Assembly (NCBI GenBank): GCA_014323545.1
Contig: CP058647.1
Location: 3,016,001 to 3,080,000 of the forward strand
DNA length: 64,000 nt
Direction: 5' to 3'
From: Hyphobacterium sp. CCMP332
GTDB taxonomy: Bacteria > Bacteroidota > Bacteroidia > Cytophagales > CCMP332
Shown piece by piece: positions 14,452 through 21,852 of the stretch. Numbering within the stretch: position 1 is the first letter of the stretch; each line of letters opens with the position of its first letter. Position numbers and translations under genes: made by a program. The notes beneath the pieces are model-generated. The model made no database searches. It was not told the origin of the DNA and saw only the letters and a program-made list of their open reading frames with translations.

Positions 14452-15273
14452 CTAAAACTGATAGCTTAAACTGGTGCGAAAGCCACCTTGAAAAGGAAGC
14501 ATACTGATATTGGTCTTTTGATAAAATTTAGATTTGTGAAATTGCGGAATGAGAATACCTACGGAAGCACCCACCAAATAACCTACTATGAGGTCGCTTG
14601 GAAAATGTTTACCGGCTTTATATCGAAAATAAGCTGTATAAAAAGAAGGAAGAGAAGCCAAACCATACAACAGAAATTTTTTATTTCTCAATTCGGGGTG
14701 ATAATCCAGAAATACCTTGCACATAAAAAATGAAGAACTGGTAACTACAGATACATGGCCACTGTAAAATGAATCACGGCTCTTGGGCCCTGATTTTCTT
14801 TCTTCTATTTCGTCGGGATTATATACAAAAGGACGATTTCTTTTAATATTCTGAGCGGAAGCCAAATAAATCAGGGTGTTCACAGCATGCGTTTCAAGAT
14901 ACATCAAAGTGAGATTCAGCGCATCATTGCGGATTTCCTTGTCAAATCCAAGAAAAAAGGGAAGGGCAGGTACAGTTCTCAAAGCGATATCGGATAATCC
15001 ATGGGCCTCATTGGCAAAGGACGGGTCCTGCTTAGCAGCGGAACGGTCAAATGCATTGACATTTTGAGGGCTTAAATTTGAATATTGTTCCGGACTTAAA
15101 CGTGGAGCTTGACGCAGTTTTTCCTGGCCGTAAAAATTATAGCCAAAGCCAATTACCGTCACCGGTATATCGACCCAATAGTTAAAGCGGTAAATTGAAC
15201 TGTCATTTTTTTGCCCTGAGACTTCAATTCGGAGCATTAACAGTACGATCACCAATAGAAGATATTTATTCAA
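14452..15273 (-). CDS. PAP2 family phosphatase
   Basis: About 273 residues from the TTG at 15273, which gives the signal peptide/anchor MNKYLLLVIVLLMLRIEVSGQ; a longer reading would overlap the divergent TetR gene and its promoter. The PAP2 triad motifs are visible: KRNRPFVY, SFYSGHVS and RYKAGKHFPSDLIVG, giving the catalytic histidines and conserved arginines. Such enzymes dephosphorylate undecaprenyl-, phosphatidyl- or other lipid phosphates on the periplasmic side. The FYSGH form replaces the common PSGH but keeps the catalytic HV. A -33/-7 promoter lies at 15309-15340. The gene is divergent from the TetR gene and shares its control region. Confidence 0.85.
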   Translation of the reverse strand: MNKYLLLVIVLLMLRIEVSGQKNDSSIYRFNYWVDIPVTVIGFGYNFYGQEKLRQAPRLSPEQYSNLSPQNVNAFDRSAAKQDPSFANEAHGLSDIALRTVPALPFFLGFDKEIRNDALNLTLMYLETHAVNTLIYLASAQNIKRNRPFVYNPDEIEERKSGPKSRDSFYSGHVSVVTSSSFFMCKVFLDYHPELRNKKFLLYGLASLPSFYTAYFRYKAGKHFPSDLIVGYLVGASVGILIPQFHKSKFYQKTNISMLPFQGGFRTSLSYQF

Positions 15274-15308
15274 GCGGTTTAGAATTAAATTGCTAAGATA
15301 AGGGCATT

Positions 15309-15340
15309 CAAAAATAAAATTTAAAAATGTAATATTACAA
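15309..15340 (-). promoter_or_regulatory. Bacteroidota-type promoter of the PAP2 gene
   Basis: On the minus strand a TTG (complement of 15338-15340) is followed after 21 bases by TATTTTTG (complement of 15309-15316), fitting -33 TTTG / -7 TAnnTTTG. The predicted transcript start falls about 30 bases before the TTG start codon, supporting the short form of the protein. It abuts the divergent TetR promoter. Confidence 0.6.
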
Positions 15341-15373
15341 TTTGCAAAATTAATAGTAATACTATTATATTTG
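15341..15373 (+). promoter_or_regulatory. Promoter with overlapping dyad operator for the TetR gene
   Basis: TTTG (15341-15344), 21-base spacer, TATATTTG (15366-15373) match the -33/-7 consensus. A perfect dyad AATAGT-AAT-ACTATT (15352-15366) fills the spacer and touches the -7 box. Nearly the same 24 bases recur at 17148-17171 in front of the exporter operon (22 of 24 identical). The position between -33 and -7 is ideal for repression, so autoregulation by the TetR protein is inferred. Confidence 0.65.
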
Positions 15374-15388
15374 CATCGATTATATAAT

Positions 15389-16072
15389 ATGATGGAATTT
15401 TTATCTAAAGTCAACATTCAGGTAAATGAGAACATCTACCTAAAAAATCCCGACTCCAGTAATTTGGGAAAAAACATAATTTCCGGGAGTATTGACCTAA
15501 TTGAGAAAATGGGTTTTGAAGCCTTTACTTTCAGAAAGTTGGGAAATGAAATTAATTCAACTGAAGCGTCAATCTACCGTTACTTTGAAAGCAAGCACAA
15601 ATTGCTTCTTTACCTAATCAATTGGTATTGGGCCTGGATGGAATACAGATTGGTTTTTTCAATGGCCAACATCAATTCCCCTGAAGAACGGCTTCAAAGA
15701 GCTATAACCTTATTAACCGAAGAATACAACTCTGAAAAAAAATTCAATCATATTGATACTCAGAAGTTATTCAACATAGTTATACAGGAATCGTCCAAAT
15801 CATATTTAATTAAAGAAGTTGATAAGGTCAACCAGGAAGGAGCATTTTTAGCTTATAAGCAATTGGTAGGCCGGGTTGGGGATATAATTCTGGAAATTAA
15901 TCCCAAATACAAATACCCACACATGCTTATTTCAACTGTGATTGAAGGAGCGCATCATCAACGTTTTTTTGCTGAACACCTTCCGCGACTAACCGATGTT
16001 GCCGACGGAGAAGCGACCATTCCTAATTTTTATAATAACATGGTTTTGAAGACCATTAAAAATGAAAAATAA
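15389..16072 (+). CDS. TetR/AcrR family transcriptional regulator
   Basis: About 227 residues. The N-terminal helix-turn-helix (about residues 30-65) contains NIISGSIDLIEKMGFEAFTFRKLG and STEASIYRYFESKHKLL, the standard TetR recognition pattern; the C-terminal ligand domain is not assignable. The start is taken at ATG 15389 (or the next codon, 15392) because the more upstream TTG at 15371 lies inside the -7 box. It probably represses its own promoter and the exporter operon through the shared dyad operator. SbtA follows on the same strand, after a terminator-like hairpin. The inducing ligand is unknown. Confidence 0.88.
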   Translation: MMEFLSKVNIQVNENIYLKNPDSSNLGKNIISGSIDLIEKMGFEAFTFRKLGNEINSTEASIYRYFESKHKLLLYLINWYWAWMEYRLVFSMANINSPEERLQRAITLLTEEYNSEKKFNHIDTQKLFNIVIQESSKSYLIKEVDKVNQEGAFLAYKQLVGRVGDIILEINPKYKYPHMLISTVIEGAHHQRFFAEHLPRLTDVADGEATIPNFYNNMVLKTIKNEK

Positions 16073-16113
16073 AACATTGTTTAGAGATTTATTCAATAGA
16101 CAAAAAGCACTTT

Positions 16114-16142
16114 ACCTGTCAATTAAAATGTCAGGTTTTTTT
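16114..16142 (+). terminator. Rho-independent terminator after the TetR gene
   Basis: ACCTG (16114-16118) pairs with CAGGT (16132-16136), extended past one T-T mismatch by two further pairs, and is followed by seven Ts. It would end or attenuate the TetR transcript 42 bases past the stop codon and before the SbtA gene. Confidence 0.55.
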
Positions 16143-16164
16143 ATGAATTATAAAATACAGAAAA

Positions 16165-17127
16165 ATGACCTTTGATCTTTTACTTGAAAATCTAACAAAT
16201 CCGGCTTTATTATTCTTTTTTCTTGGAATATTAGCTGTACAGCTCAAAAGTGATCTTGAGATTCCACCAACCTCATCCAAGTTTATCTCGCTTTATCTTT
16301 TGTTTTCAATTGGTTTTAAGGGAGGACAGGAACTCGCTCATAGTAACATGGATCTTGAAATTCTATGGTCTCTGGTGTTCGGAATAATTTTAGCTCTGGT
16401 GATTCCGATTTACTCATTTTTTATCCTGAAAAAGAAATTTGGTGTATTTAATGCCGGGGCAATTGCAGCAGCTTATGGTTCAGTAAGTGCTGTAACCTTT
16501 GTTACGGCAGTTTCATTTCTCGAAATTCAAAAAATTGAATTTGGTGGACATATGGTGGCAGTTATGGCCCTTATGGAAGCCCCTTCAATAATAATTGGTG
16601 TTTTGCTTATGTCGTATTTTAACAAAAAGGACAATTCTGAAATTAATATTCCTGAGGTTATACGTCATTCATTTACAAATGGAAGCGTACTTATGGTTAT
16701 GGGAAGTTTGGTCATCGGATTTCTGGCCAGTGATCAGCAGGCAGAGGGAATCAGGCCTTTTACCACCGATATATTCAAGGGCTTTTTGGCAGTATTTTTA
16801 TTGGATATGGGCATCATTAGTGGAAAACGGCTTTCTTCTTTTCTCGAAAACGGTTGGTTTGCCTTAATTTTTGCCATTGTGGTTCCTTTCTTTAACGGAA
16901 TCCTAACTGCCTATCTTTCCTCATTTTTTACTCAATCTGAAGGCAACCAATTGTTGTTTTCGATTTTGGCAGCCAGTGCATCGTATATTGCTGTACCTGC
17001 AGCCATGCGATTGGCAGCGCCCGAAGCCAATCAAAGTTTGTACATTCCAATGGCTTTAGCTATTACCTTTCCATTTAATATCACTCTGGGAATGCCCATT
17101 TATCTTTATATTATTCAAAGTATTTAA
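16165..17127 (+). CDS. Sodium-dependent bicarbonate transporter, SbtA type
   Basis: A 320-residue polytopic membrane protein of the SbtA/DUF897 family. Diagnostic blocks are LKSDLEIPPTSSKF near residues 27-40, then SIGFKGGQEL, AIAAAYGSVSAVTFVTA near 96-112 and AVMALMEAPSIIIG near 130. Characterised SbtA proteins of cyanobacteria import HCO3- with Na+ across the inner membrane; transport of bicarbonate here is inferred from family membership. The usual cyanobacterial partner SbtB (PII-like) is not adjacent. The gene sits between the TetR gene and the exporter operon, with a terminator-like hairpin upstream, and has no clear promoter of its own. Confidence 0.87.
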   Translation: MTFDLLLENLTNPALLFFFLGILAVQLKSDLEIPPTSSKFISLYLLFSIGFKGGQELAHSNMDLEILWSLVFGIILALVIPIYSFFILKKKFGVFNAGAIAAAYGSVSAVTFVTAVSFLEIQKIEFGGHMVAVMALMEAPSIIIGVLLMSYFNKKDNSEINIPEVIRHSFTNGSVLMVMGSLVIGFLASDQQAEGIRPFTTDIFKGFLAVFLLDMGIISGKRLSSFLENGWFALIFAIVVPFFNGILTAYLSSFFTQSEGNQLLFSILAASASYIAVPAAMRLAAPEANQSLYIPMALAITFPFNITLGMPIYLYIIQSI

Positions 17128-17137
17128 ATAATAATAC

Positions 17138-17169
17138 TTTGATAAATGATAGTAAAACTATTATATTTG
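17138..17169 (+). promoter_or_regulatory. Promoter with dyad operator for the ABC-HlyD-TolC operon
   Basis: TTTG (17138-17141), 20-base spacer, TATATTTG (17162-17169). The dyad ATAGT-AAA-ACTAT (17149-17161) sits in the same register as in the TetR promoter, and the bases ACTATTATATTTGCA are identical in both. This supports control by the neighbouring TetR protein. The leader to the ATG at 17335 is about 160 bases and contains no gene. Confidence 0.65.
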
Positions 17170-17334
17170 CAAATAAATTAACAATTGATATAATTCTTTT
17201 TGTAAATAATTAATGTGGTCAAATAGATTTATATATCGAGGGTAATTTATAAGGATTGAACAATTTGGTTAATTTCGACTTAATCTATTTATCAGAAAGA
17301 TTTAGATAAGATTTTACAATTCATATTGTCATAA

Positions 17335-19068
17335 ATGAGTGATTACTCAAATACATCTTTAACGCCATTAGAAAGATTTTGGAGGCTTCTGAAACCAGAC
17401 AGCCCGGAAATCAGAAATGTTTATATCTATTCAATTTTTATTGGATTGATAAATCTTTCCTTGCCTCTTGGAATTCAGGCCATTATCAATTTGATCCAGG
17501 GGGGGCAGGTGAGTACCTCATGGATTGTGTTGCTGGTATTTGTTGTTGGCGGCGTCGCTGTTGCAGGGGTATTACAGATATACCAGATGCGAATTACGGA
17601 GAACTTGCAACAAAAAATATTCACCAGAGCTTCTTTTGAATTTGCATACCGAATACCCAGGGTAAGGTTGGAAGCCTTGTATCGCTATTACGCGCCCGAA
17701 TTAATGAATCGCTTTTTTGATACCATGTCGGTACAAAAAGGATTGCCAAAAATTCTCATTGATTTTTCAGGAGCATCTTTACAGGTGATTTTTGGATTGA
17801 TATTACTGTCATTTTATCATCCATTCTTTATCATTTTCAGTTTAATTTTAGTCTTGCTGGTTTATGCGATATTTTGGTTAACAGCCAAAAGAGGCCTGGA
17901 AACAAGTTTGGAAGAATCAAAATACAAATACCAAACAGCACACTGGTTAGAGGAAATGGCAAGAACCAGTGTCACCTTTAAGCTTGCTGGCAAAACCGAT
18001 TTACCACTTCAGGTAACTGATAAATTGACAGGCGATTACCTTAAATCAAGGGAAGGGCATTTCTCTGTATTAGTTCAACAGTATTCTTTGATGGTGGTTT
18101 TCAAATCGATCGTTGCACTCGGATTGTTGGCACTTGGTGGAATTCTAGTGATGGAACAGCTCATGAATATTGGACAATTCGTAGCTGCGGAAATCATTAT
18201 CCTACTTATTATGAATTCTGTTGAAAAACTCATCATGAGTTTTGAAACCATATATGATGTATTAACTGCTCTCGAAAAGATGGGGCAGGTGACGGACATG
18301 GAACTCGAACAATCGGAAGGAATAGACTTGATAGAACAATGCGATAAAAATGGTCTTACTGTCGATCTGGATAATGTATCTTTTTATTACCCCGGACAGA
18401 AAAAAGCGGCATTAAGGGATATCTCATTGCATTTGGCGTGTAGCGATAAGGTCATGATTACCGGAGAAAACGGATCGGGAAAAAGCACTCTGGTTCAGGT
18501 TTTGGCAGGACTTTATGATGTCCAGGATGGGGGGATTTCCTATAACGGTTTTCCCATAGGCAATGTAAACCTGGAGTCGCTCAGGTCAGTAATAGGCGAT
18601 TACATGTCGCAGGAGCAACTTTTTGAAGGAACAATAATTCAAAACATCGCTATGGGCAGAGAAGTAGCCACTTTTGACAATGTGAAATGGGCCGTTAAAA
18701 ATCTGGGATTGGAAGAATTTGTCAGAAAATTGCCTTACGGATACGACACCATGATCGCGCCAGAGGGTAAAAGACTGCCTAAAAGTATTGTGGAAAAAAT
18801 TCTAATAGCAAGGGCCATTGCGGATAAACCTAAACTCCTTTTAATTGAAGATGCATTTGAACATCTGGACGAAATTGACAGAAGAAAAATTATAGATTTT
18901 CTGACAGATAAAGAGAATGAATGGACCATGGTGACAGTTTCTGCGGATCCATATGTTGCAAAGAGATCGGATAAAATATTTGAGGTAAAAGACGGGGAAA
19001 TAATTCACAGAGGAACCTATAAGGAAATGGAATCATTGGCAAAACTCAAAAAGAACAGGGATGCTTAA
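17335..19068 (+). CDS. ABC transporter (fused permease-ATPase) with non-canonical ATPase motifs
   Basis: A 577-residue half-transporter: six-helix ABC membrane domain (about 20-310) and nucleotide-binding domain (about 340-570). Walker A is intact (GENGSGKST, K383) and a Q-loop is present at Q426. The signature loop reads LPKSI (481-485) instead of LSGGQ, the Walker B end reads LLLIED (E505-D506, acidic pair inverted relative to DE), and the switch-histidine position falls in VSADP with no histidine. No C39 peptidase domain precedes the membrane part. With HlyD and TolC genes following, it should be the inner-membrane motor of a type I secretion or efflux complex. ATPase capacity is uncertain. 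The HlyD gene overlaps its end by 8 bases. Confidence 0.88.
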   Translation: MSDYSNTSLTPLERFWRLLKPDSPEIRNVYIYSIFIGLINLSLPLGIQAIINLIQGGQVSTSWIVLLVFVVGGVAVAGVLQIYQMRITENLQQKIFTRASFEFAYRIPRVRLEALYRYYAPELMNRFFDTMSVQKGLPKILIDFSGASLQVIFGLILLSFYHPFFIIFSLILVLLVYAIFWLTAKRGLETSLEESKYKYQTAHWLEEMARTSVTFKLAGKTDLPLQVTDKLTGDYLKSREGHFSVLVQQYSLMVVFKSIVALGLLALGGILVMEQLMNIGQFVAAEIIILLIMNSVEKLIMSFETIYDVLTALEKMGQVTDMELEQSEGIDLIEQCDKNGLTVDLDNVSFYYPGQKKAALRDISLHLACSDKVMITGENGSGKSTLVQVLAGLYDVQDGGISYNGFPIGNVNLESLRSVIGDYMSQEQLFEGTIIQNIAMGREVATFDNVKWAVKNLGLEEFVRKLPYGYDTMIAPEGKRLPKSIVEKILIARAIADKPKLLLIEDAFEHLDEIDRRKIIDFLTDKENEWTMVTVSADPYVAKRSDKIFEVKDGEIIHRGTYKEMESLAKLKKNRDA

Positions 19069-20425
19069 TATTTCCAGAAATAGTGTGAGCCAATTTATCA
19101 AGAAAGAAGATTTTATCTCTCTTAGATATGTTGAAAGGTTACATTCAGGTAGGGTATTACTCAAAATATTGATGTATATCTCGATAGTATCAATAATCGT
19201 GATGTTCATCCCATGGACACAGAATATAAGAGCAAGAGGAAGTGTGACAACCATACGACCGGATCAAAGGCCTCAAACTATTCATTCCATAATTGCAGGT
19301 AGAATTGAAAAGTGGTTTGTAAAAGAAGGGGACTTTGTATACAGAGGAGACACCATTTTATTTATTTCTGAAATCAAGGATGATTATTTTGATCCACAAT
19401 TACTTTCGAGAACCAGGGCACAGGTTGTTGCAAAAGAAATGTCGGTGCAATCTTATATTGAAAAAGTGAATGCATTGGAAAATCAAATTGAAGCGCTGGT
19501 ACAAACCCGAAAATTGAAGCTTCAGCAAGCGGAAAACAAACTAAAACAGGCCCATTTGAAAGTAACTAGTGATTCCATTGATTTTCAGGCCGCTATTATC
19601 AATTTTGAGATCGCCAGTGAGCAGTTTCAACGTTATGAAAAACTCTATAAAGATGGTTTACAATCACTTACTGATCTTGAAAACCGGAAGAATAAATTGC
19701 AGGAAGCGCAGGCCAAAATGATCTCTGCAGAAAATAAATTACTGACAAGTCAAAATGAAGTAATAAATGCCAAAGTTGAGCTCACATCGATTGATGCACA
19801 ATACCGCGATGATATTGCTAAAGCCAAATCAGAAAAGTTTACGGCTTTATCGGGTAAATACGATGCTGAGGCTGCAGTGACTAAACTCGAAAACCAATTC
19901 ATGAATTATTCGGTAAGAACAGGCATGTATTATATCACTGCTCCACAGGATGGATATGTGACAAAGGCGATTCAATCCGGATTGGGAGAAACAATTAAGG
20001 AAGGTGCTTCAATTGTCAGTATTATGCCTTCGCAATACGACCTCGCAGTGGAAATGTATGTAAATCCATTGGATTTACCTCTGATCGAAAAGAAACAGGA
20101 AGTGCGAATACAATTTGACGGTTGGCCTGCAATTGTATTTTCCGGTTGGCCAAATACCAGCTATGGAACCTACGGAGGTAGAGTTTTCGCTATAGATAAT
20201 TTTATAAGTGACAATGGCAAATACAGATTAATGGTTGCTCCCGATCCAAACGATCATCCCTGGCCGGATGCTTTACGGGTAGGCGCAGGCACATTCAATA
20301 TGCTATTGCTAAAAGATGTGCCAATTTGGTATGAATTGTGGCGACAAATCAATGGTTTTCCTCCGGATTACTATAAGAACGACTGGAATACAGAAGTCAA
20401 TAATAAGTCCAAAAACTCCAAATAG
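19061..20425 (+). CDS. HlyD family periplasmic adaptor (membrane fusion protein)
   Basis: A 454-residue adaptor: a short cytoplasmic N-terminus, one membrane helix (about 25-46, ILMYISIVSIIVMFIPW), a lipoyl half (SIIAGRIEKWFVKEGDFV), a long coiled-coil hairpin (about 115-270) and the return lipoyl strand with ITAPQDGYVTKAIQSGLGETIKEG near residue 300. It bridges the inner-membrane ABC protein and the outer-membrane TolC channel. Translational coupling to the ABC gene is suggested by the 8-base overlap. The C-terminal region (PDALRVGAGTFNMLLLKDVP) is the usual beta-barrel part of HlyD proteins. No cargo gene is adjacent. Confidence 0.9.
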   Translation: MLNISRNSVSQFIKKEDFISLRYVERLHSGRVLLKILMYISIVSIIVMFIPWTQNIRARGSVTTIRPDQRPQTIHSIIAGRIEKWFVKEGDFVYRGDTILFISEIKDDYFDPQLLSRTRAQVVAKEMSVQSYIEKVNALENQIEALVQTRKLKLQQAENKLKQAHLKVTSDSIDFQAAIINFEIASEQFQRYEKLYKDGLQSLTDLENRKNKLQEAQAKMISAENKLLTSQNEVINAKVELTSIDAQYRDDIAKAKSEKFTALSGKYDAEAAVTKLENQFMNYSVRTGMYYITAPQDGYVTKAIQSGLGETIKEGASIVSIMPSQYDLAVEMYVNPLDLPLIEKKQEVRIQFDGWPAIVFSGWPNTSYGTYGGRVFAIDNFISDNGKYRLMVAPDPNDHPWPDALRVGAGTFNMLLLKDVPIWYELWRQINGFPPDYYKNDWNTEVNNKSKNSK

Positions 20426-20430
20426 ACAAG

Positions 20431-21852
20431 ATGAAGATACGCTTCATATATATCTTATCCGTTCTTTTTGGACTGAGCATTATAAATACATTCGCTCAAA
20501 ATGATACCACTTTGGTCATGGATTTTGATGCGTATATGAAGATTGTAAAAGAGCATCATCCTATTGGTCAACAAGCGGAATTACAACTGGACAGGGGTAA
20601 GGCCGTGCTTCGAGAAGCAAGGGGAGGATTCGATCCAAAGATAAATCTGGAATCTTCACAGAAGGACTTTGAAGATAAAAACTATTATGATCTTCTGGAT
20701 GCCGGTTTGAAGGTACCAACATGGTTTGGTCTTGAGTTTAATGGTGGTTATGAACAAACCAGGGGAGTTTTTTTAAATCCTGAGAATAATACACCAGGAG
20801 CGGGTCTTGTATATGCAGGAGTCGGCATTCCCATTGGAGAGGGTTTATTCATTGATAAACGCAGGGCAGAATTGAGAAAAGCCAAAATTTTCAGAGAAAG
20901 CACCGAAGCGATGAGAAAGTCAATTTACAATGAACTCTTGTTCGATGCTGGAAAGGCCTATTGGGAATGGTTTATGGCTTACCATGTGCTTCTGGTTTAT
21001 GAAAATGCCTTAAATGTTGCCATTCAAAGATTTGAAGCTGTAAAACAGTCTGCATTATTTGGAGATAAACCCAGCATCGATACTTTGGAGTCAGGGATAC
21101 AGGTGCAAAACAGACGTCTTGCACTTCAGCAATCCAGACTTGACTTTAAAAATACGTCTGCGCTACTTTCCATTTATTTGTGGAGAGACGGTGAAATCCC
21201 TTTGGAATTAGATTCCATAGTCGTTCCACAGGAAAAAGATCGCGTAGAAACAGATGCCCGTTCTGGTTTTTCAGAATTGGAAATCGATAGCTTGCTTCTC
21301 AATCATCCTGATCTGTTACAATACGATTTTAAAATTGAACAATTGGACATTGAGCGAAGATGGAAAATAGAACAGCTCAAACCCGATTTAAATTTGAAAT
21401 ACAATTTTTTAGCCGAACCTTTGACAAATAACATCTTTTCTGAATTTACACCAAATAATTACAAATGGGGTTTGCAATTTGAAATGCCCGTTTTATTAAG
21501 AAAAGAAAGAGGAGCCTTGCTTCAAACCAAAGTCAAAGTACAAGAAGCGCAATTTGATTATAGCCTTAAACAGGCGGAATTGGGTTTTAAATTTCAGGCG
21601 GCGAGAAACGAGTTATTTACTACCAATAGTCAGGTAAATTTATATCGTCAAACAGTACAAGATTATCGGGGACTTTTGACGGGGGAAAGAACAAAATTTA
21701 ACGGCGGGGAAAGCTCGCTCTTTTTAGTGAACTCAAGGGAGTTGGGCTATATTAATGCTCAAATTAAACTGATAGAATTGCTATCCAAAAATCAAAAAGC
21801 AAAGCTCAAACGCGACTATGCTTTGGGAATTCTTTCAGAAATCAATTATTGA
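20431..21852 (+). CDS. TolC family outer-membrane channel
   Basis: A 473-residue protein with a signal peptide (MKIRFIYILSVLFGLSIINTFAQ) and the two TolC-type halves, each with a pair of long helices: an N-terminal half with EHHPIGQQAELQLDRGKAVLREARGGFDP and GVGIPIGEGLFIDKRRAELRKA, and a C-terminal half with NHPDLLQYDFKIEQLDIERRW and the FEMPVLLRKERG strand. It forms the trimeric channel through the outer membrane for the preceding ABC-HlyD pair; the gap to the HlyD gene is 5 bases, so one transcript is likely. The three-gene set is complete. Confidence 0.9.
   Translation: MKIRFIYILSVLFGLSIINTFAQNDTTLVMDFDAYMKIVKEHHPIGQQAELQLDRGKAVLREARGGFDPKINLESSQKDFEDKNYYDLLDAGLKVPTWFGLEFNGGYEQTRGVFLNPENNTPGAGLVYAGVGIPIGEGLFIDKRRAELRKAKIFRESTEAMRKSIYNELLFDAGKAYWEWFMAYHVLLVYENALNVAIQRFEAVKQSALFGDKPSIDTLESGIQVQNRRLALQQSRLDFKNTSALLSIYLWRDGEIPLELDSIVVPQEKDRVETDARSGFSELEIDSLLLNHPDLLQYDFKIEQLDIERRWKIEQLKPDLNLKYNFLAEPLTNNIFSEFTPNNYKWGLQFEMPVLLRKERGALLQTKVKVQEAQFDYSLKQAELGFKFQAARNELFTTNSQVNLYRQTVQDYRGLLTGERTKFNGGESSLFLVNSRELGYINAQIKLIELLSKNQKAKLKRDYALGILSEINY

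Follow-up and report, generated by a model that had tools for sequence, protein, structure and literature searches.

Introduction

QacR-qacA, AcrR-acrAB and MtrR-mtrCDE are efflux systems repressed by TetR proteins, and cyanobacterial SbtA and BicA stand under the LysR-type regulators CcmR and CmpR. In marine Flavobacteriia, sbtA has been discussed along with anaplerotic fixation (PMC5932025); the word TetR is absent from the main text of that paper. The openly licensed literature, covered by titles and abstract starts, yielded neither TetR-controlled bicarbonate uptake in heterotrophic Bacteroidota nor a description of the operator dyad considered here.

Here, we describe a locus in a window of 64,000 nt (the whole stretch of DNA analysed) in which sbtA lies between a tetR gene and an ABC-HlyD-TolC exporter operon. 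From its sequence and that of its relatives, we consider it highly probable that an autoregulating TetR protein represses tetR, with or without sbtA, as well as the exporter through one dyad, and that an inducer would turn on the pump together with bicarbonate uptake.

Results

Proteins encoded at the locus

The tetR gene (15389..16072, plus strand) encodes a 227-aa regulator of the TetR/AcrR family. The protein carries the TetR_N DNA-binding domain (PF00440, 35.5 bits; cut-off 24), its model is an all-helical TetR fold with a TetR C-terminal domain (mean pLDDT 86.2), and a putative operator dyad lies over its own promoter, as is typical of the family. The listed structural matches of the model, beginning with the first (Z 15.8, r.m.s.d. 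4.5 over 182 residues), are TetR proteins. The fatty-acyl regulators FadR, BkaR and KstR2 are among the top matches, tied with many other TetR proteins; because the matches are so many and tied, we rejected naming a ligand from the structure. To two decimals, the HTH residues E59, Y63, R64 and Y65 are invariant across the 106 TetR proteins. Further into the protein, K137 is present in 106/106 and H197 in 97%.

The downstream gene, sbtA (16165..17127, plus strand), encodes a 320-aa protein whose Sbt_1 domain (PF05982, 382.5 bits; cut-off 27) spans residues 13–318. This places it in the SbtA family of Na+-dependent bicarbonate transporters and predicts uptake of HCO3-. It is followed on the same strand by an ABC exporter of 577 aa with membrane and ATPase domains (17335..19068; PF00664 and PF00005, both above cut-off), a HlyD-type periplasmic adaptor of 454 aa (19061..20425; PF13437, 42.6 bits; cut-off 22.2) and a TolC-type outer-membrane channel of 473 aa (20431..21852; PF02321 (OEP), 116.3 bits; cut-off 22). 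Encoded together and each above its Pfam cut-off, the three make up a tripartite (type I) exporter. Its scores against the NCBIfam type I subfamilies LssB (185.7; cut-off 693.1), PrtD (168.9; cut-off 510.15) and HlyB (158.2; cut-off 725.55) are all below cut-off, so we call it a tripartite ABC exporter and assign no substrate.

In the gap between tetR and sbtA, a weak hairpin precedes a T run (16114..16142, plus strand; RNA fold -6.7 kcal/mol, z -0.9); this structure is absent from the list of a terminator scan. We rejected it as a terminator because it is not significant and was missed by the scan. It could possibly act as a partial terminator that reduces read-through into sbtA, and such read-through is thus not certain.

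Two operators in promoter spacers

A sequence-only reading of the window had proposed a dyad in the spacer of the tetR promoter and again in front of the exporter operon, and both are found where it had placed them. Operator 1 is a perfect dyad, AATAGT-AAT-ACTATT (15352..15366), whose core ATAGTAATACTAT (15353-15365) is flush with the -7 box TATATTTG. Operator 2, ATAGT-AAA-ACTAT (17149..17161, ATAGTAAAACTAT), likewise adjoins a TATATTTG box. The tetR promoter (15341..15373, plus strand) consists of TTTG at 15341-15344, a 21-nt spacer and the -7 box at 15366-15373; that of the exporter (17138..17169, plus strand) has TTTG at 17138-17141, a 20-nt spacer and the box at 17162-17169. Both therefore fit what we take to be the Bacteroidota -33/-7 promoter consensus, and both dyads lie inside the promoter spacer, touching the -7 box. 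Compared in register, 15353-15376 and 17149-17172 agree in 22 of 24 bases, 15 of them uninterrupted and including the -7 box and the following GCA, exactly as claimed. When the exporter upstream region was resampled 20,000 times from a Markov model, the top 24-mer match was 20 (reached twice) and never higher.

The bare dyad ATAGTNNNACTAT occurs at four places in the genome, with 4+4 strand hits on the pattern and 8+8 on a reversed-pattern control. Dyad and -7 box together, with up to two mismatches, gave three strand hits, all at the two window sites, against six for the control. We rejected these genome-wide counts as proof, since they do not exceed the control; rarity is no argument here, and position, register and conservation carry the case. 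The search also bears on one worry raised with the original proposal, that the same bases might stand before many unrelated genes: within its own genome, the combined pattern marks two places only.

On the minus strand, the window encodes a PAP2 phosphatase ORF upstream of tetR (14452..15417; PF01569, 51.9 bits; cut-off 27.2), with its true start probably near 15297. Read on that strand, operator 1 matches in 20 of 24 bases and has a TAATTTTG box in the same register, facing PAP2. The geometry behind the earlier suggestion of PAP2 co-repression is thus present, but a PAP2 query among 297 loci matched only the window's own gene. Judged by promoter geometry, PAP2 is a possible further target of TetR.

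Operator conservation upstream of tetR

The TetR protein has relatives in at least 200 of the 390 order genomes (E <= 1e-20) and in 126 of the 395 class genomes (E <= 1e-30), two sets that overlap in some genomes. Loci were sampled across genera among the higher-ranking matches and blind to gene context, with g77 and g71 contributing several each. A recognised tetR was present in 67 of the first 69; L091 and L096, which have no recognised tetR ORF, were excluded from the 67 and from the full set of 106. The latter comprises distinct TetR proteins, L254 repeating the protein of L035 and being counted once.

A site with at most one mismatch lies upstream of tetR or its operon in 50/67 loci, compared with 3/469 other gene starts in the same loci. 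The remaining 17 of the 67 have no such site in the scanned stretch, and L097, L099 and L101 not even one with two mismatches. Across all 106 distinct loci, 75 have a site with at most one mismatch within -250..+130 of the tetR ORF start, a count that misses operons beginning with a gene other than tetR. A TAnnTTTG box accompanies 36 of these 75 sites and always starts at the base after the 13-mer; in the other 39, the dyad is present and the box was not found. Some loci (L073, L095, L102) have a divergent layout, with the dyad between tetR and the ABC gene. As expected from the sequence-only reading, the dyad is kept in relatives of the same gene order. Unlike a TetR-exporter unit, which is ordinary, an exact operator kept across the class is not.

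Exporters away from tetR

Twenty genomes, hand-picked and mostly with tetR not adjoining the exporter, were searched for the exporter (E <= 1e-60), which was matched in 17 and not in G243, G152 and G335. After dropping L208 and L215, where another tetR adjoins, and counting the broken gene of G160 (L220/L223) once, we obtained 16 unlinked exporters. Within 400 bp upstream, 8/16 have a site with at most one mismatch and three more have one with two mismatches; the other five have none with up to two. Two of the eight (G385, G015) were known beforehand as site carriers, and without them the count is 6/14. Our own arithmetic from the site density in L043-L102 (53 in 819,855 bases, real sites included) gives about 0.4 expected among the 16. 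In G160 (L220, L223) and G207 (L221), the exporter ABC gene was matched in part only; the G160 gene, matched as two overlapping pieces of which one contains a stop, appears to have decayed.

The exact 13-mer is present in at least 150 of the 390 order genomes. Among the matches listed, we hand-picked and fetched 40 places away from the tetR genes on the TetR match list. Three proved to have a tetR after all (L169, L172, L173), and two were tetR-less exporter operons (L165, L171). The remaining 35 adjoin neither a tetR or exporter gene nor one for SulP, carbonic anhydrase or SbtA, and 13 of them fall within called ORFs, one of these being just 70 aa in length. With 35/40 places beside no expected gene, the 13-mer alone is a poor finder, and we rejected the idea of deriving an unbiased regulon from it. 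An exact operator-like 13-mer also precedes a peroxiredoxin gene in two genomes of one genus (L136 3329-3967, PF00578; L141 2164-2751), which may be a further target or chance.

Inorganic-carbon genes beside tetR

We grouped SulP (PF00916), beta-carbonic anhydrase (PF00484) and SbtA as inorganic-carbon genes, with examples identified by Pfam and the rest by blastp. Same-strand runs containing tetR include at least one of them in 23 of the 106 loci, seven of which also have the exporter. The whole set divides into 62 loci with the exporter, 16 with inorganic-carbon genes, the seven with both and 21 with neither; five of these 21 have a divergent exporter, and a few have contig ends or a split ABC gene. 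In three more loci (L035, L256, L290), carbonic anhydrase or SulP is encoded divergently from tetR.

In SulP-carbonic anhydrase-tetR operons, the operator lies before SulP (L049, L051, L053, L055, L057). For L056, L060 and L258, the 300 bp in front of SulP and of tetR contain no site with up to two mismatches. The run tetR-small ORF-SulP-ABC-HlyD-TolC of L264 has its operator before tetR. In G243, tetR accompanies SulP and carbonic anhydrase, and in G335, it lies behind carbonic anhydrase. No exporter was matched in either genome (E <= 1e-60), so tetR can have carbon genes as its sole partner. Against the NCBIfam BicA model, the relatives' SulP scores 140.8 (L044) and 128.7 (L264), far below the cut-off of 880; the DauA (C4-dicarboxylate transporter) model scores higher (189.1 and 181.9), yet below its own cut-off of 614. 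We therefore assign these proteins to the SulP family only, the adjoining carbonic anhydrase suggesting a role in bicarbonate transport.

The window's own genome has a second inorganic-carbon locus, SulP then carbonic anhydrase (G000 C1:2619193-2621276; L293, L294), with no site of fewer than three mismatches; as the operator is absent, we rejected this pair as a regulon member. Between tetR and SulP or ABC, several loci have a small ORF of about 90-110 aa where complete (L036, L038, L043, L044, L260, L261, L264, L268). Its product begins hydrophobic, is acidic in the middle and ends in a PPPE- or PPPK-like sequence; three that were tested gave no NCBIfam match near a cut-off. Isocitrate dehydrogenase recurs near tetR (L067, L085, L086, L281, L287; L085 above the NCBIfam NADP-dependent cut-off, the others by blastp); the L067 gene has a perfect operator 36 bases upstream.

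SbtA is in the tetR run of 7/106 loci. The operator lies directly before sbtA in L067 (sbtA-tetR) and L075 (sbtA-tetR-ABC-HlyD-TolC). L087 has the run tetR-usp-sbtA-PII-ABC-HlyD, with an operator of two mismatches before tetR; here, a universal stress protein and a P-II-family protein (PF00543, 44.0 bits; cut-off 25), a candidate of the SbtB type, are encoded beside SbtA. In L085, L270 and L287, the operator is placed between sbtA and tetR, so these loci show neighbourhood more than shared control. The best 30 sbtA loci include the window's own; of the other 29, none (0/29) has a site with up to two mismatches within 300 bp upstream. We therefore rejected SbtA as a general member of the regulon. 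The sbtA genes of G022, G051, G079, G120 and G145, all of one genus, gave a two-piece match in a longer frame, which suggests an insertion within SbtA.

History of the locus

On a tree of the 106 TetR proteins, the SbtA label requires seven changes for seven rows, all forced by well-supported branches (bootstrap not fully settled). Shuffled labels need a mean of 6.9 changes, so that the real rows are equally scattered. The tree thus holds no inheritance of the SbtA link, which points to repeated recruitment or chance neighbourhood. The SulP/carbonic anhydrase label requires ten changes for 16 rows, at least three of them forced, and is clustered (0/500 shuffles as low).

The two genomes of the same family, G001 and G002, have the order operator-tetR-small ORF-ABC-HlyD with no sbtA there, and neither genome has an sbtA match at E <= 1e-30. 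At the family's loci L043 and L045, where tetR, ABC and HlyD occur and sbtA does not, the one operator stands in front of tetR and no second copy precedes ABC. In the window, where sbtA separates tetR from the exporter, a copy of the operator precedes the exporter itself. L074 repeats this solution, with a second, perfect operator after tetR and before a CutA1-like gene and the exporter. We read the second copies as selection keeping the exporter under the repressor.

Discussion

The conserved, precisely placed operator and the unlinked exporters that carry the site give good support to a putative single TetR regulon, made up of tetR, with or without sbtA, and of the ABC-HlyD-TolC exporter. 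From the observed sites, their register, their conservation and their gene contexts, we infer binding, repression, induction and read-through into sbtA as follows. The 15389-16072 protein would be an autoregulating TetR-family repressor that, as a dimer on the dyad ATAGTAWTACTAT in the promoter spacer, against the -7 box, would block RNA polymerase. The exporter genes would be under the same repressor through their own copy of the dyad, and sbtA would be expressed by read-through from tetR, past the weak hairpin. Binding of an inducer would release TetR and switch on the export pump and bicarbonate uptake together. Repression of both units, as first proposed from the letters of the window, is thus the best reading, with the dyad kept in relatives and present before half of the unlinked exporters. 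The accompanying proposal that sbtA and the exporter answer to one inducer is weaker, as is that on PAP2; it has parallels in L067, L075 and L087, but the 29 best sbtA genes outside the window lack the site.

More tentatively, and with somewhat less than even confidence, one TetR and one operator could form a regulator of inorganic carbon or cytoplasmic pH across the Bacteroidia, with SbtA, SulP, carbonic anhydrase and the exporter recruited repeatedly and independently. If this is true, expulsion of a compound and import of bicarbonate would be one stress response in heterotrophs.

As to why export and bicarbonate uptake should be paired, acid stress is our favoured guess. In an explicit form of the proposed mechanism, which we regard as rather unlikely, the inducer of TetR would be a membrane-permeant acid, which the pump would expel while bicarbonate uptake and carbonic anhydrase rebuild the cytoplasmic pH. 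This would explain SbtA, SulP and carbonic anhydrase alongside an efflux pump. Fatty-acyl regulators among the top structural matches, and the conserved K137 and H197, which would suit an anion, are compatible with it; however, many other TetR proteins match the model equally well, and G243 and G335 pair tetR with carbon genes in the absence of an exporter match.

We consider it improbable that the dyad is a TetR site while sbtA is a passenger caught between tetR and the exporter by chance. Such a passenger would fit the lack of sites at the 29 sbtA genes elsewhere, the possible weak terminator in front of sbtA, the operator between sbtA and tetR in L085, L270 and L287, and the tree, where the seven sbtA rows are scattered like shuffled labels. 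On the other hand, if roughly one genome in three, each with some 4000 genes, has a single sbtA, our rough arithmetic predicts well under one sbtA by chance, against the 7/106 loci observed. The operator immediately before sbtA in L067 and L075, the single run of L087 and the same tetR link of SulP and carbonic anhydrase likewise speak against a passenger.

Equally improbable, in our estimate, is a variant of the shared-repressor mechanism in which bicarbonate serves as a carboxylation substrate, for example for malonyl-CoA, in making the exported compound. It would link export to bicarbonate uptake, and isocitrate dehydrogenase does recur near tetR, but recurrent biosynthetic genes are missing from the clusters of at least five members in the first 69 loci, which comprise tetR, ABC, HlyD, TolC, SulP, carbonic anhydrase, SbtA, a helicase-like cluster and one single-locus cluster. 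That the shared 24 bases instead represent a variant promoter or are bound by a different regulator, with TetR binding elsewhere, is very improbable: the match is partly promoter, as it includes the -7 box and GCA, but the dyad follows the tetR family into SulP-carbonic anhydrase-tetR (L053, L055, L057) and sbtA-tetR (L067) operons, into divergent tetR/ABC gaps (L073, L095, L102) and in front of distant exporters, and in 39/75 loci it is present with no TAnnTTTG found behind it.

Under the regulon proposed here, a short, exactly placed operator lets membership be read from many genomes. Its recurrent pairing with the pump offers a route to the pump substrate and the inducer. Judged from sequence, the pairing of a pump with bicarbonate uptake under one predicted repressor site, in many Bacteroidia, appears unobvious. 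What is new is the recurrence of bicarbonate-uptake genes under the conserved putative TetR operator, a regulon that is not ordinary and is testable.

The locus resembles QacR-qacA, AcrR-acrAB and MtrR-mtrCDE in that a TetR gene controls efflux, with a dyad operator over the promoter, both predicted here. It differs from them in having its operator within the -33/-7 spacer of a Bacteroidota promoter, a pump of the ABC-HlyD-TolC type and, by prediction, bicarbonate-uptake genes on the same switch. With cyanobacterial SbtA and BicA, it shares a predicted regulated bicarbonate uptake, the SbtA and SulP families and, in L087, a P-II-family protein beside SbtA; in contrast to control by CcmR and CmpR, the predicted regulator is of the TetR instead of the LysR type, and a tripartite exporter would belong to the same regulon. 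The MpsAB/DAB inorganic-carbon pumps are comparable as a supply of inorganic carbon in a non-autotroph, although the passages considered mention no TetR regulon and the transporters here differ (PMC6689103).
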